Source of the DNA: a bacterium
GTDB taxonomy: Bacteria > CSSED10-310 > JAJRTK01
Reading direction: 5' to 3'
Assembly: GCA_024278345.1 (NCBI GenBank)
Contig: JAJRTK010000511.1
Location: 1 to 6,743, forward strand
Length of the DNA: 6,743 nucleotides
In this document: piece by piece, positions 1,280 through 6,743 of the stretch
Numbering within the stretch: the first letter of the stretch is position 1
Layout: the number at the start of each line of letters is the position of its first letter
The notes under the pieces: model-generated
Database searches by the model: none
The model's input: only the letters and a program-made list of their open reading frames with translations
What the model was told of the DNA's origin: nothing
Translations under genes and position numbers: made by a program

Positions 1280-3307
1280 TCAGAAGACCCTGGCCGTGTA
1301 CTGGACCGTGAGCTCGTTTTGCACTTGGCGGTAGGTGATGCGCATCCACCCGAAGAAGACGTCCCGGGAAATGGAGACGTCTAGGGCGCTGAAGCGGTTG
1401 CGGAAAAAGTCGAAACTTGCCCGTGCGGAGCCGCGCCAAAGAGTCCCGAAATCGCCATTGAACTGCGAGCTGGCGTTGAGGGGCCGGCCCTCGGAAATGC
1501 TGTAACTTCCCATAAGAATAAGGCTTTTCGAACGGCCAAGTTGAATCCGGGAACTGCTGGAAACCTCCTGGAGAACCGTGCCCAGGGTCCACCAATCAGA
1601 GTTGGTCTGTCGGACGGTCACGTAGCGATAGGTGACCGAGGCGGACGAGAAGCGGCCGAATCTCTGTGTGAGGGTCACCAGCCCGTTGAATTCGGTTTCA
1701 TCGTTGAGGTCCTGGAGCGTTTTTTGGCTGACCCGCATCCGTGCGTCCAGAAGGAGCTTGCGGGTAAACTGGATGGGGACGTGTTGAAGAAGCAGCCAGG
1801 CCTCGTCGTTCAAGCGGTCGTCTGTAAAGGTGGGGTTGTGGATGGAAGAAAACTCCACCCTGTTTACCACGGAGGCCAAGAATCCGCCGCCGATGGACTT
1901 CGGCAGAGATTCAATCGTCAGAGAAGGCAAGAGAGTGGTCTGCTCCCGTTCCAAATCCATGCTCCCTGAATAGTTGATGCTGGCGCGAAGCAGGTTGGAG
2001 GAGAGGGACACTCGAAGCCTCTGGGAAAGGACCTCCGCCGGCTGGTAGATCCCTTGATCGAACCGCTTGAGGTATCTGCTTGACGCAGTGAGGTCCAGCC
2101 GGTCTCTCCAGGTGCGTGATCGGATGTTGAAGCGCAGGGAGAGCTCAGTGCCCAAGTCGAAGGCCGCCTCCAGCGACGAGCGGAACTGCTCCTTTTCGTA
2201 GAGGTGGCGGAGACTCAAAACCTGGTGCTTCCCGGTTACGGGATCGGCCCCAAGTTGTCCTGCCGCACTCAAGGTATGTGCCCCTCGCTGGAGATCGAAA
2301 CCAAGGCGTCCCTTCCATTCTCCGTCCGTTTGGTAATAGCTCCTGGCTTCCAGCTCCGCCCCGGAACCAAGGAGGAAAAGCTGGCGGAAACCAAACCGCG
2401 CCCGCCGCTTGGCACGAAAGGGATCGTTCAGAAAGGAAAGCTCCTCGTACCGGGCGCTGAAGGTCGTGAGCAGCATCTCTGCCGGCGAGAGAGCGTACTG
2501 GACATTGGCCAGAATCCCGCTCAGATTCGACGCACCTAAAGACTGGATCGTCACGCCCTGACGAGGCACGGCGTCCCCGGTGCGAAAACTGAAGTAGGGG
2601 AGCCTGGGGCCCGGCTCCCCGTTGATATGAGGCACGACGCCCCAAGCCCGAACGCGGCTTTCAGGATCGATCTTGACCTTGTCGAGCTGAAGGTAGACCG
2701 GAGATTCGATGATCAGCGTGAGATCCGCGTCGATGGGTCCGCTTTCCAGCTCCGAAAATTGGAGCTCGAGCTGGGTGCTGGCAATCTCATCCTTTTCCGG
2801 GAACCAAATCCGCTCAGTCTCGATGCGATCACCATAGGTGGTGAGAATCCCCCGGCGGCTCTGGAAATCGATGCGGAGCACATCCCCCGCAAAACTTCTC
2901 TTCCGCTCCCCCTTCCGAAGGTTGCCCCGAACGCTGGTGAGGAGCGCTCGGCGAGAACCCACATCCAGGCGAAGCGTCTGGGCGACGACATTGAAGCCGC
3001 GACCGCTATACCGGACCTCTCCGCTGGCGTAAAGAAGCTTCTTGCTCGACTGGTAGAGCATGAACTCCGCGGTGACGGTGATGATCACCGGATGGGGAGA
3101 GGATGCCAGAAACCGCTGGGCAGGTTCGAGAGTTTCTGAACCGCCATTTCCTGAAGGGGCCAAGACTTTTTGGGGTTGGCTTTCGCTCCCACCGACCCGC
3201 GCCTGCGGCACGAGTTCCCCGGGTTCGCCGCTGTCCGCCTTGTGCGTCGCCAAGGCCATCACCATGACCCCGACGAAAAAGATTAGCGTTGTTCGGGGAA
3301 GAATCAC
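1280..3307 (-). CDS. lptD: LptD/OstA-type outer-membrane LPS assembly protein
   Basis: This 675-residue protein is predicted to insert lipopolysaccharide into the outer leaflet of the outer membrane. Residues 1-20 form a signal peptide (hydrophobic LIFFVGVMVMALA; cleavage likely near ALA-TH). A Ser/Gly/Pro-rich linker follows to about residue 70. Residues about 75-215 resemble the LptA/OstA jelly roll, rich in alternating beta strands. The segment LPYFSFRTGD (236-245) matches the conserved junction that leads into the LptD barrel, and the rest is amphipathic beta strand ending in a C-terminal Phe, as outer-membrane barrels do. It is shorter than E. coli LptD (784 residues) and has no cysteine, so it cannot form the inter-domain disulfides known there. 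The GTG start at 3307 overlaps the upstream TGA (GTGA) with no good Shine-Dalgarno sequence, which suggests translational coupling to the lipoprotein gene. A more distant OstA-like barrel with another cargo is possible. Confidence 0.8.
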   Translation of the reverse strand: MILPRTTLIFFVGVMVMALATHKADSGEPGELVPQARVGGSESQPQKVLAPSGNGGSETLEPAQRFLASSPHPVIITVTAEFMLYQSSKKLLYASGEVRYSGRGFNVVAQTLRLDVGSRRALLTSVRGNLRKGERKRSFAGDVLRIDFQSRRGILTTYGDRIETERIWFPEKDEIASTQLELQFSELESGPIDADLTLIIESPVYLQLDKVKIDPESRVRAWGVVPHINGEPGPRLPYFSFRTGDAVPRQGVTIQSLGASNLSGILANVQYALSPAEMLLTTFSARYEELSFLNDPFRAKRRARFGFRQLFLLGSGAELEARSYYQTDGEWKGRLGFDLQRGAHTLSAAGQLGADPVTGKHQVLSLRHLYEKEQFRSSLEAAFDLGTELSLRFNIRSRTWRDRLDLTASSRYLKRFDQGIYQPAEVLSQRLRVSLSSNLLRASINYSGSMDLEREQTTLLPSLTIESLPKSIGGGFLASVVNRVEFSSIHNPTFTDDRLNDEAWLLLQHVPIQFTRKLLLDARMRVSQKTLQDLNDETEFNGLVTLTQRFGRFSSASVTYRYVTVRQTNSDWWTLGTVLQEVSSSSRIQLGRSKSLILMGSYSISEGRPLNASSQFNGDFGTLWRGSARASFDFFRNRFSALDVSISRDVFFGWMRITYRQVQNELTVQYTARVF

Positions 3308-4059
3308 GGCGCGGGATCTTCTACGAGCTCAATCAAGTAAACCCTTCCGGCGCGATCAGAATAGTAGAAATCCTTGCCGTCCGAAGCAAGGCCCACCGCT
3401 GGCGTTCCCGGCAGGGAGATGGCTCGGATTTCGCTTCCATCCGCCCCAAGCTGCACCAGTCGGCTATCAAGTTGATCGATGGCCCAAAGCTCCGCACCGC
3501 GAAAAGCCAAGCCCCCCGGGGAGTTGATGGTGGGCACGGGAATTGGCTCACCCACGACTCCCAGGATGGGATCGATCCGGGCCAAGGTGGAATCGGCCCC
3601 ATCGATCACCCAGAGCAGCTCCCCGTCGAAGGCGACCCCGCGAGGATCACCACCCTGAGTCGGCAGGGGCTGTTGCAGCAATTCTCCGGTGAAGGGATTG
3701 ATCCGCGCGACGCTCCCCTGCCCGGGCTGGGTCATCCAAAGGAAATTATCGTCTGGCGCCACGCCAAAGATTGTCCCTAGATCCAGGCGTCGCTGGAAAT
3801 CGGATCGGCCATCCCGGGCAAAGATCCGGTAGAGCCTGCTTTCCGAGCTATCCACCACCCAAAGCTCCTCTTCTTCGAAGGCCAGTCCCGCAGTCTGGCT
3901 CCCCGGAGCATCGTAGAAGCTCAGAACCCGAATACCCTCCAAAGGGTTTTCCGGGTCCACCGGATTGTCAAAAACCCGAGATGCGCAACCCAAAAGAGAC
4001 AACACCAAGAACCCCGCTATCCGGAAGCTCGCGTATCCACGTAAGGCGGGACAGAGCAG
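3304..4059 (-). CDS. Beta-propeller repeat lipoprotein, coupled to lptD
   Basis: The predicted product is 251 residues with a lipoprotein signal: Arg7/Arg13, hydrophobic IAGFLVLSLL and lipobox L-L-G-Cys25. Residue +2 after the Cys is Ala, compatible with outer-membrane sorting by the E. coli Lol rule. An NPVDPENP stretch follows the Cys. Five similar repeats begin at residues 58, 99, 141, 183 and 223, with consensus G-L/V-A-F-D-G-x-x-L-W-V-x-D then S-x-L-x-R-I. They are 40-42 residues apart and resemble NHL/YncE-like propeller blades. The function is unknown; such propellers usually bind proteins or ligands. It directly precedes lptD with a 4-base overlap, so a role beside LptD is an inference. 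The start is unusual: the frame is open back to an ATG at 4500, but that extension runs through repeat DNA. No ATG, GTG or TTG lies at a suitable distance before the signal peptide. CTG at 4059, with GGGGA six bases upstream, is my best choice. Confidence 0.75.
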   Translation of the reverse strand: MLCPALRGYASFRIAGFLVLSLLGCASRVFDNPVDPENPLEGIRVLSFYDAPGSQTAGLAFEEEELWVVDSSESRLYRIFARDGRSDFQRRLDLGTIFGVAPDDNFLWMTQPGQGSVARINPFTGELLQQPLPTQGGDPRGVAFDGELLWVIDGADSTLARIDPILGVVGEPIPVPTINSPGGLAFRGAELWAIDQLDSRLVQLGADGSEIRAISLPGTPAVGLASDGKDFYYSDRAGRVYLIELVEDPAP

Positions 4060-4065
4060 GAAAAT

Positions 4066-4070
4066 TCCCC
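4066..4070 (-). promoter_or_regulatory. Candidate ribosome binding site for the CTG start at 4059
   Basis: GGGGA on the minus strand lies six bases before the CTG codon. It is a moderate Shine-Dalgarno match and the main support for that start besides the position of the signal peptide. Confidence 0.35.
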
Positions 4071-4084
4071 GGCGACCCGTTGTT

Positions 4085-4141
4085 CCGCTTTGGGTGGATA
4101 CCCGGAAGCGGAGGTGGTCAACGGTGGTCGGCGAAGCCGAC
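4085..4141 (-). promoter_or_regulatory. Two hairpins in the lipoprotein-lptD leader
   Basis: The first hairpin (4085-4111) has an outer stem CCGCTT/AAGCGG and an inner stem GGGT/ACCC with a four-base loop, and ends 26 bases before the proposed start. The second (4127-4141) is GTCGGC/GCCGAC with a three-base loop. Both would form in the transcript leader of the operon. Control of translation or mRNA stability is possible, but dispersed palindromic repeat DNA is an equally good explanation. Confidence 0.4.
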
Positions 4142-4170
4142 TTTCCCTGCGGTCGGCACCGGTCTCCCCC

Positions 4171-4252
4171 AAAAAAGCGCGCAGCACACAAAGGTGTGGG
4201 TAGGGATCCCGTTGCCCGCAAGTTGCAACGGGAAATGAGCGCGCTCCCTGGC
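4171..4252 (-). repeat. Dispersed hairpin + T6 element, copy C
   Basis: On the minus strand the order is GCCAGGGAGC (4252-4243), a 9-bp hairpin (TCCCGTTGC 4207-4215 with GCAACGGGA 4225-4233, 9-base loop), then the 31-base core ending in GCTGCGCGC-TTTTTT (4201-4171). The core matches copy A (242-272) at 29 of 31 positions. One of the two differences (C to T in the GYGC arm) keeps the small stem paired through a G·T wobble. It lies about 110 bases upstream of the proposed lipoprotein start and points the same way, so its terminator-like end could act as an attenuator; that is inference. Confidence 0.8.
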
Positions 4253-4257
4253 GAGGT

Positions 4258-4327
4258 CCAGGAGCAGCGCTCCTGGCGGAGGTATGGAGGCGGAGCCTCC
4301 GCCGGGTTCCAGGGCTGGAAGCCCTGG
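4258..4327. repeat. Cluster of three tight palindromes
   Basis: Three perfect inverted repeats lie almost back to back: CCAGGAGC/GCTCCTGG (4258-4276, loop AGC); GGAGGC/GCCTCC (4286-4300), which overlaps the alternative GGCGGA/TCCGCC (4289-4303); and CCAGGGC/GCCCTGG (4309-4327, loop TGGAA). Together with copy C and the leader hairpins they form about 240 bp of nearly continuous hairpin DNA, consistent with palindromic intergenic repeat elements. Confidence 0.75.
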
Positions 4328-4746
4328 GGCTGGGTCCGAAATTCACTGGGTGGCCGGGTCCGAGCGACAGCGAGAGCTGCCGAAGGCACCACCGGTGACC
4401 GAGGCCCCCGGAAGCTCCAGAGAGCAGAAAAATGAACCCACCACTTTTTCCAAGAAACCATGCCCCTTAACTCCGGCAGGAGTGCCATGAAAACGACCAT
4501 GTTCTACTAGAAACTCCAAGGAGGGCACAAGCCTTTTTCGGGAACCCGGTCTGCTCGATCCCAATGGAGAAGCCCCAAGTTCTCACCCAGAATCCACGGC
4601 GGAGGCGGATCTATCCCCGCTCTACCGGCCTCCTCTCATTGGGGCGCCCTCGACGTGGGCAGGACTTCACCGGAGCCCGACTCTCCCTGTCCGTGGTCGT
4701 AGCGGGGCTTCCGGCTCCCCCTGTTTTTCGCGAGAAGCAATTTTTT

Positions 4747-4775
4747 TTGAACAATAACTCTATGAGTTTACTAAA
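4747..4775 (+). promoter_or_regulatory. Possible plus-strand sigma70-type promoter in AT-rich island
   Basis: TTGAAC (4747-4752) could be a -35 box, and TACTAA or ACTAAA (4769-4775) a -10 box after a spacer of 16-17 bases. The -35 box matches consensus at four of six positions and the -10 box at about three, so it is weak by itself. Support comes from its place in a sharply AT-rich patch flanked by T8 (4741-4748) and A8 (4773-4780), and from a strong plus-strand terminator about 310 bases downstream. The inner palindrome AACTC-TAT-GAGTT (4756-4768) could be an operator. Confidence 0.3.
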
Positions 4776-4945
4776 AAAAAGATGTTTTTGATTTTTTGTT
4801 CGAAAAATTCGGGAACATTTCTCACTGCCCGATGTTGTAGACTGCGAATAGGGAAGGGAACAGCGAAGTCGCGGAAGCGGCAAGGCTGGTTTGGCAGCTT
4901 GCATCCCAAGAAACGACCTGGTACCGCGCTCCTCCTCCTCAACAG

Positions 4946-4973
4946 GGTGAGCGGGGAAGTACCCCGCTCCACC
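4946..4973. repeat. 11-bp GC-rich hairpin with one bulge
   Basis: GGTG-AGCGGGG pairs with CCCCGCT-CCACC around the loop AAGTA, leaving one bulged C. The GAGCGGGG/CCCCGCTC heart is perfect. The sequence style resembles the palindromes at 4258-4327. The weakly T-rich stretch after it on the plus strand is not enough for a terminator call. Confidence 0.6.
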
Positions 4974-5089
4974 TTCTTTAAAAGAGGTTCAGTGAGGGCG
5001 AGCATCGGGTTTTCCTGAATAAAATATCTACCTTCTTAGGAAGGTCGCGAGCTTTCCTTCTTAATTGTAAGGAATCATCCCTCCCCCCG

Positions 5090-5136
5090 AGGGGCGAGAA
5101 CCTGGTTCTTCGGAGCCGGCTCTTGCCCCTTTTTTT
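5090..5136 (+). terminator. Strong intrinsic terminator with UUCG tetraloop
   Basis: On the plus strand the outer stem AGGGGCGAGA (5090-5099) pairs with TCTTGCCCCT (5121-5130) with one G·T. After one mismatch, CC-GGTTC (with T5103 bulged) pairs with GAGCC-GG and closes on a C(TTCG)G tetraloop (5108-5113). A run of seven T residues follows (5130-5136). On the minus strand the same hairpin is followed by CGGGGGGAG and not by T, so it is directional and cannot serve the minus-strand genes. Confidence 0.8.
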
Positions 5137-5180
5137 GTACCCCGGCCCTGGCCCCTCCACACCATTGAGCGAGGCAGGAC

Positions 5181-5208
5181 CGGTCATCGGTGGCCAAAAT
5201 GATGACCG
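5181..5208. repeat. 8-bp inverted repeat downstream of the hydrolase gene
   Basis: CGGTCATC (5181-5188) and GATGACCG (5201-5208) are exact inverted copies around a 12-base spacer. There is no T-run on either side. It could be a protein-binding site or a hairpin at the mRNA 3' end. Confidence 0.45.
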
Positions 5209-5241
5209 ATGGGAACGTTTCTGGTTTCTCGGCGCCGGCCG

Positions 5242-5270
5242 AAAAAAACTGGGCGGCGACCTTTGACCAG
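5242..5270 (-). terminator. Weak terminator candidate after the hydrolase gene
   Basis: On the minus strand, starting 11 bases after the TGA stop, CTGG (5270-5267) can pair with CCAG (5252-5249), and seven T residues follow directly (5248-5242). The outer stem is only four base pairs, with a small GG/CC helix inside, so termination here is uncertain. Confidence 0.35.
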
Positions 5271-5280
5271 ATCAAGAAAG

Positions 5281-6591
5281 TCAGTTCACGTAGCCCAACT
5301 GGCGAAGCTGTTCCAGTTGCTCCGCCGAAAGATCGGGTTCCTCCTGGACGACTCTAGTGGACCGCCACCAGTCCAAAAGCAGGCGCCGGTACCGTTGAAG
5401 CTCGGGATGGCGTTGCGAGATGTTCCTTGTTTCTCCGGGATCACGAGCAAGATCGAAAACCCGCAGCTCCTTCTTCTTGGGAAGCAAGATCACCTTGAGG
5501 TTTTTCAGAAAGACCCCGATACGGCTCGGTTCTTTCCGCTTGACCGGGGACCAGAGAGTAAAGGTCTCGAAGTAGACAGGTCGCCGTTCCCATTGTTGCG
5601 ATCCGTCGAAGAGCGGAACCAGTGATTCTCCATGGCCCGACCTGCTTTTCAAGCCCAGCACTTCCAAGAACGTAGAAAAAAGATCCACCAGGCTCACGCG
5701 GTCGGCCACCAGGCGTGTCTTGGCCAGGCCGCCTGGCGGGCGAATCAGCAGGGGAATATGGAGGACCGGAGCGTAGACGCGTCGTCCGTGCTGATGATCT
5801 CCATGTTCGCCGAAAGCCTCGCCATGATCGGAGAAAATCACGATCCAACTGTCCCGGAAATGCCCGGCGCGGCGCAAGGCTTCCAGAAGTCGCGCAATCT
5901 GGGCGTCTGCAAAGGCGATCTCACTGTCGTAGGCCGCGAGCTTCCGAAGGAGCTTCGGTTTCTTCTCTGGGTGCAGCGAACCCAGGCTTTGAAGAAAATC
6001 GGCGTACCATTCTGGCTGCTGGCTATAGGGCACGTGGGGATCGAAGTAGTGCACGAATAGAAAAAATGGAGTGTGGCTTCTTGTTTGAAGCCAGGAAATA
6101 GCTCGATCCGTCACCTGGTCTCCAAATCTCTGGGCATTGATGAGCTTGTAGGTGTCGGTCATCTCGTCATCGTAAAACTTGAATCCCCGATCAAGCTTCG
6201 ACAGGTTTTTGCGAAGAGTCCATCCTGAAATGAAGGCCGCCGTGTCGTAACCTGCTTGCCGCAGGATCTGCGGTAAGACCGGGATTTTTTTTGAAATGGG
6301 CACCGTATTGCGAATGGCGCCGTGGGCATGGGGCATAAGACCGGAGAAGACGGTCGAATGAGCTGGGCCGGTGAGGGGAATCACGGCCTGTGCATCAGCG
6401 AAGAGGTAGGCTTCGCGGCTGATCCGGTCAAGGGTGGGGCTTGTCTGAAGGCAATACCCGCCAAGGCCAAGGTGATCCATCCGAGTCGTATCGACGGAGA
6501 TGAGGATCAGGTTTTTTGGGGGCTTTTGAGAAGGTTCTCCCGCGGCAAAAGGCGTCGTGAAGAAAAGGAGCAGCGGGAAGAACAATGCCAC
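5281..6591 (-). CDS. Secreted sulfatase-superfamily hydrolase, Thr nucleophile
   Basis: This 436-residue protein belongs to the alkaline phosphatase/sulfatase fold. Metal-site motifs are visible: ISVDTTRMDHLGLGGY (31-46, with Asp34) and FSDHGEAFGEHGDHQHG (253-269, with Asp255 and His256), plus HYFDPHVPY (181-189). The nucleophile loop reads IPLTGPAH (71-78). The sulfatase Cys/Ser-x-Pro/Ala-x-Arg signature is absent and Thr74 takes the place of formylglycine. A phosphodiester or phosphotransfer role is therefore at least as likely as sulfate ester cleavage; the substrate is unknown. The end LEQLRQLGYVN resembles the point where related proteins continue into TPR repeats, which are missing here. 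GTG 6591 is the first conventional start, but its signal peptide then lacks a basic N-region. CTG at 6603 gives a start of M-K-L-V-V-A-L-F-F with GGAG six bases upstream, and I consider it the likelier true start. The frame is open to the window edge. Confidence 0.88.
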   Translation of the reverse strand: MALFFPLLLFFTTPFAAGEPSQKPPKNLILISVDTTRMDHLGLGGYCLQTSPTLDRISREAYLFADAQAVIPLTGPAHSTVFSGLMPHAHGAIRNTVPISKKIPVLPQILRQAGYDTAAFISGWTLRKNLSKLDRGFKFYDDEMTDTYKLINAQRFGDQVTDRAISWLQTRSHTPFFLFVHYFDPHVPYSQQPEWYADFLQSLGSLHPEKKPKLLRKLAAYDSEIAFADAQIARLLEALRRAGHFRDSWIVIFSDHGEAFGEHGDHQHGRRVYAPVLHIPLLIRPPGGLAKTRLVADRVSLVDLFSTFLEVLGLKSRSGHGESLVPLFDGSQQWERRPVYFETFTLWSPVKRKEPSRIGVFLKNLKVILLPKKKELRVFDLARDPGETRNISQRHPELQRYRRLLLDWWRSTRVVQEEPDLSAEQLEQLRQLGYVN

Positions 6592-6609
6592 AACCAGCTT
6601 CAGGTGGTG

Positions 6610-6613
6610 CTCC
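6610..6613 (-). promoter_or_regulatory. Ribosome binding site favouring a CTG start at 6603
   Basis: GGAG on the minus strand (6613-6610) lies six bases before CTG 6603, which is followed by AAG. This restores a positive residue to the signal peptide. The conventional GTG at 6591 has only GAAG very close upstream. Confidence 0.45.
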
Positions 6614-6743
6614 AGCCCTAGGGCAATGGATGACGAAGGCGGCGATAATGGCGAGCAGCGGGCGTCGGATGGCGACCGATGGGAGCGGAACGCAACACGA
6701 AGAAGACAAAGGGTTTGCCGAGAACTCCGCCCTAAAAGAAGAG

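Follow-up and report, generated by a model that had tools for sequence, protein, structure and literature searches.

The window, by which we mean the whole stretch of 6,743 nucleotides that was analysed, constitutes an entire contig (C456) of a 6.06-Mb assembly that comprises 550 contigs and is 87.9% complete. It contains three protein genes, and all three lie on the minus strand, as had been claimed in the original prediction for every real gene of this DNA:

1280-3307, minus strand, gene matching neither Pfam nor NCBIfam at the cut-offs applied
3304 to about 4000, minus strand, gene for a beta-propeller-like protein with weak similarity to the virginiamycin B lyase family
5281-6591, minus strand, sulfatase-family gene (PF00884), convergent with the candidate RNA described below and relevant here as context

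A search of genome contigs with the sulfatase returned a single distant relative. Positions 4024-4410 are covered by a dispersed repeat of the genome, and none is listed for 4411-5280; the stretch of the candidate RNA is not repetitive and, short chance matches apart, is present in a single copy in the assembly. The same intergenic repeat family also occupies approximately positions 1-200 of the window and many other loci of this genome (for example L094, L110 and L055). It is often located at contig ends and is probably the cause of assembly breaks. Within positions 24-138, a 23-nt unit with the internal palindrome GTGAC CCTTCGA GTCAC is repeated in tandem, and related copies exist in several other contigs. 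Positions 6598-6741, where the sulfatase frame extends upstream to the contig end, share 90-98% identity with stretches in contigs C59 and C513, and probably represent a repeat rather than protein.

The plus strand carries a prominent termination signal in the region between the minus-strand genes:

5089-5136, plus strand only, intrinsic terminator with stem 5089-5108/5113-5131, UUCG loop 5109-5112 and T7 tract 5130-5136

The hairpin (5089-5131), whose 18-bp stem leaves three bases unpaired and is capped by a C(UUCG)G loop, overlaps the tract T5130-T5136 and has a calculated free energy of -28.3 to -29.8 kcal/mol. The terminator originally proposed for 5090-5136, with its C(UUCG)G loop and seven T residues, is therefore borne out, including its direction: a direct reading of the reverse strand gives no U-tract after the stem, so that the terminator works one way only. 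The further proposal, that the RNA could act against read-through from the hydrolase mRNA, finds no basis in the terminator, which is inactive on the minus strand; such an action would only be possible by base pairing with a long 3' UTR of that mRNA.

When compared with about 1 Mb of the same genome, sampled at 101 loci with eight short contigs read as N, the 5089-5136 signal ranks first among the canonical terminators. The next-strongest intergenic terminators in the sample have values of -21.8, -19.8 and -19.2 kcal/mol, and the best one in five dinucleotide-shuffled copies of the sample reaches -21.6 kcal/mol. Weaker hairpin-plus-T sites show no excess, with 15 in the real sample and 11-24 in the shuffles; it is thus by its strength that the 5089-5136 terminator is exceptional.

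What such terminators mark in this genome was assessed by counting hairpins followed by six or more T residues. Four of 17 stable-RNA units have one downstream; in a search zone of 150 nt, none of 666 protein genes does. The resulting Fisher p-value of 2.6e-7 is indicative only, as the protein genes were called by a simple codon-usage script and part of the RNA set had been gathered for containing tRNAs. The four units are those of tRNA-Leu, tRNA-Ala, tRNA-Gly and tRNA-Phe, all with tracts of T7 to T9, and since the other 13 of the 17 units lack such a terminator, the association is suggestive only. It suggests that a hairpin with T7 is a mark of stable RNAs rather than of mRNAs in this genome. 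A strong hairpin also closes one of the two tmRNA genes, but its T run is shorter and it was left out of the count. The presence of two tmRNA genes in one assembly (L147, C400:778-1140, and L146, C73:8429-8781), with a strong hairpin after one only, points to either a second gene or contamination.

Two open frames of 75-78 codons are present on the plus strand, at 4782-5018 (78 aa) and at 4564-4791. They raise the question of a short mRNA, in which a small protein such as that of the 4782-5018 frame would be followed by the terminator. Both frames, however, score below zero for codon usage (totals of -11.9 and -3.0), neither has a Pfam match, and a terminator of this type was found behind none of the sampled protein genes, which makes a short mRNA very improbable. 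A conserved plus-strand protein frame had been named as the counter-check for an RNA gene, and no plus-strand frame here looks coding.

Upstream of the terminator, the plus strand is predicted to fold into a compact structure, the elements of which are as follows:

4782-4818, plus strand, AT-rich hairpin, perhaps at the 5' end of the RNA (z -3.1; equalled by 15 of 2000 shuffles)
4851-5086, plus strand, closed multi-branched domain with closing helix 4851-4859/5078-5086 (z about -4; equalled by 0 of 500 shuffles)
4861-4888, plus strand, hairpin with a GGAA loop, paired as CAGC/GCTG and GTCGC/GCGGC (pair probabilities 0.98-0.99)
4896-5053, plus strand, long irregular arm with a side hairpin at 5030-5045 (z -4.47 on the plus versus -3.10 on the minus strand)
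5054-5074, plus strand, small hairpin TTCCTTC/GTAAGGAA (mean pair probability 0.85)

The entire 4782-5136 segment folds with approximately -139 kcal/mol (z about -4.1), a value equalled by none of 500 shuffles, and the internal hairpins that had been proposed are thereby confirmed. The closing helix of the domain stops just 5' of the terminator stem. The minus strand also folds well (z -3.6), as is expected of paired DNA; the plus strand folds better, most clearly in the 4896-5053 arm, and only there does the 4782-4818 sequence form a stable hairpin (-10.1 kcal/mol, versus -2.5 kcal/mol on the minus strand). Among equally long intergenic windows free of repeats, about 1% (three values) reach a z-score of -4.28; once windows of N are set aside, the 1st percentile of the 234 usable strand values from these controls lies at -4.46, and some of the windows with the lowest z-scores appear, by direct reading, to be 16S rRNA. 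Within the structure, hairpins 5030-5045 and 5038-5058 are mutually exclusive, and a switch between the two is conceivable, although not indicated. Elsewhere in the genome, a non-repeat intergenic segment (L122:3838-4073) forms a long near-perfect hairpin with a z-score of -6.3, and may be another candidate RNA or a terminator.

Some 145 nt separate the terminator from the convergent sulfatase gene, towards which it is directed, and it might therefore merely stop stray plus-strand transcription antisense to that gene, with the RNA upstream being functionless. We consider such a role as a simple insulator improbable, because it leaves unexplained both the closed fold directly upstream and the association of such terminators with stable RNAs. 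The gap of more than 1 kb between the lipoprotein-like gene and the sulfatase gene, with dispersed repeats up to about position 4410, would also be in line with a relic, that is, a terminator and leader left from a lost or decayed plus-strand gene. Plus-strand protein traces are absent, however, as judged from the codon scores and the Pfam search, and a locus in decay should not have kept a hairpin that ranks first in the sample, together with a fold that no shuffled sequence equals; a relic is accordingly quite improbable.

The region in which transcription of a plus-strand RNA might begin includes two features:

4741-4845, no strand, block rich in AT (30% GC) that may hold a promoter
4747-4777, plus strand, weak resemblance to a promoter (TTGAAC-19-TAAAAA), no better than chance

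AT-rich stretches such as 4741-4845 number three in the sampled sequence, the eight contigs read as N apart. A possible promoter had been proposed near 4747-4775, and a position-weight scan of both strands does return the TTGAAC-19-TAAAAA match there, at rank 31 of about 13,400 positions, which is about the level of chance; a consensus scan gave no promoter near 4747-4777. Likewise, no sigma54 promoter matched near 4740-4850, and matches in the window are no commoner than expected by chance. Several tRNA genes of this genome, read directly, have clean TTGACA-17-TAnnnT promoters. The AT-rich block fits a promoter region, but no convincing promoter was seen in the scans. The RNA would start at about 4784 if the 4747-4777 promoter serves, and otherwise somewhere 5' of 4851.

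The candidate resembles no known RNA family in the searches that we performed. With the Rfam 15 families at gathering threshold there was no match, relaxing the cut-off to an E-value of 10 brought up nothing convincing either (best sub-threshold E-value 0.61), and ARAGORN detected no tRNA or tmRNA in the window; the tmRNA genes, RNase P and SRP RNA are located elsewhere in the genome. A DNA search of 98 genomes returned short chance matches only, no DNA homologue was found in plasmids or phages, and the exact terminator pattern had no match in viral contigs. A covariance model built from the single sequence and its predicted structure gave no convincing match in the genomes of the phylum except itself. 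Against 145 genomes, it produced two weak matches (about 18 bits, E-values of 0.015-0.02 per genome), which were rejected as homologues since they resemble protein-coding DNA. The nearest genomes found share no more than the phylum, and a 675-aa neighbour protein has no match in them either, so that absent homologues say little.

One known RNA deserves separate mention. 6S RNA is clear in six of seven other genomes of the phylum and was found neither in this assembly nor in genome G003; a 6S model made from the phylum did not match anywhere in the whole assembly. The candidate could in principle be a divergent version of this seemingly missing RNA: like 6S RNA (RF00013), it would be a stand-alone intergenic RNA with a long irregular hairpin, and this hairpin, the 4896-5053 arm, from which a small side hairpin branches off, is loosely 6S-like. 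Yet the phylum model, built from six 6S RNAs, reaches no more than 5.3 bits within 4411-5280 and matches fragments only, Rfam 6S gives no match even at an E-value of 10, and in an assembly of this completeness a true 6S gene may sit in the missing part. We have therefore rejected the identification as 6S RNA, to which we would assign the slightest of chances.

Taken together, the locus is probably an independent plus-strand gene for a non-coding RNA. This is the best reading given the properties computed from the sequence, namely a terminator of exceptional strength and rarity, its direction, the association of such signals with stable RNAs, a fold beyond that of shuffled sequences, and the lack of a coding plus-strand frame. 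The terminator belongs to no co-directed gene, and the strand that would be transcribed bears no coding signal. The structured plus-strand RNA of roughly 300-350 nt that had been postulated is thus supported in part, by its terminator, its fold, the suggestive association with stable RNAs and its non-coding character, while its promoter is not established. We infer transcription of the locus, a start in the region delimited above, and a product that consists of the folded RNA itself. RNA polymerase would start in or near the AT-rich block at about 4741-4845, the resulting RNA of about 290-355 nt would fold into one closed multi-branched domain, and transcription would halt at the hairpin and U7 tract ending at 5136. 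The terminator would in addition shield the convergent sulfatase gene from transcription of the candidate RNA. Our best guess at its function, and no more than a guess, is that of a regulatory RNA acting by protein binding or base pairing.

Orphan Rho-independent terminators have been used to predict intergenic sRNA genes, for example in a screen of Sinorhizobium meliloti (PMC2573895). As in the loci of that screen, the terminator described here is foreign to the flanking genes, and its intergenic surroundings show no coding signal; in contrast to them, the candidate has neither a convincing promoter nor conservation to support it, and its RNA would be longer, at about 290-355 nt, with a strong fold. 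The DIMPL approach seeks large structured non-coding RNAs within long intergenic regions (PMC8723152). The candidate resembles its targets in being intergenic, compactly folded and located outside protein genes, but differs from the DIMPL classes in that no homologues were found, and hence no covariation; a single sequence defines no class.

Because orphan terminators are established in sRNA prediction (PMC2573895), the kind of gene is already known, and the family alone would be new. A more far-reaching reading, in which this is the first example to come to light of a hitherto unknown class of large structured non-coding RNAs in bacteria (about 300 nt), with its own transcription unit and a closed multi-branched domain that possibly includes the alternative hairpins, seems to us doubtful. 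If it is transcribed, the candidate represents an unannotated structured RNA of a lineage that stands very much apart, its nearest genomes found being related at the phylum level only. Hairpins with long U-tracts, moreover, may offer a cheap rule for finding further non-coding RNA genes in this genome.
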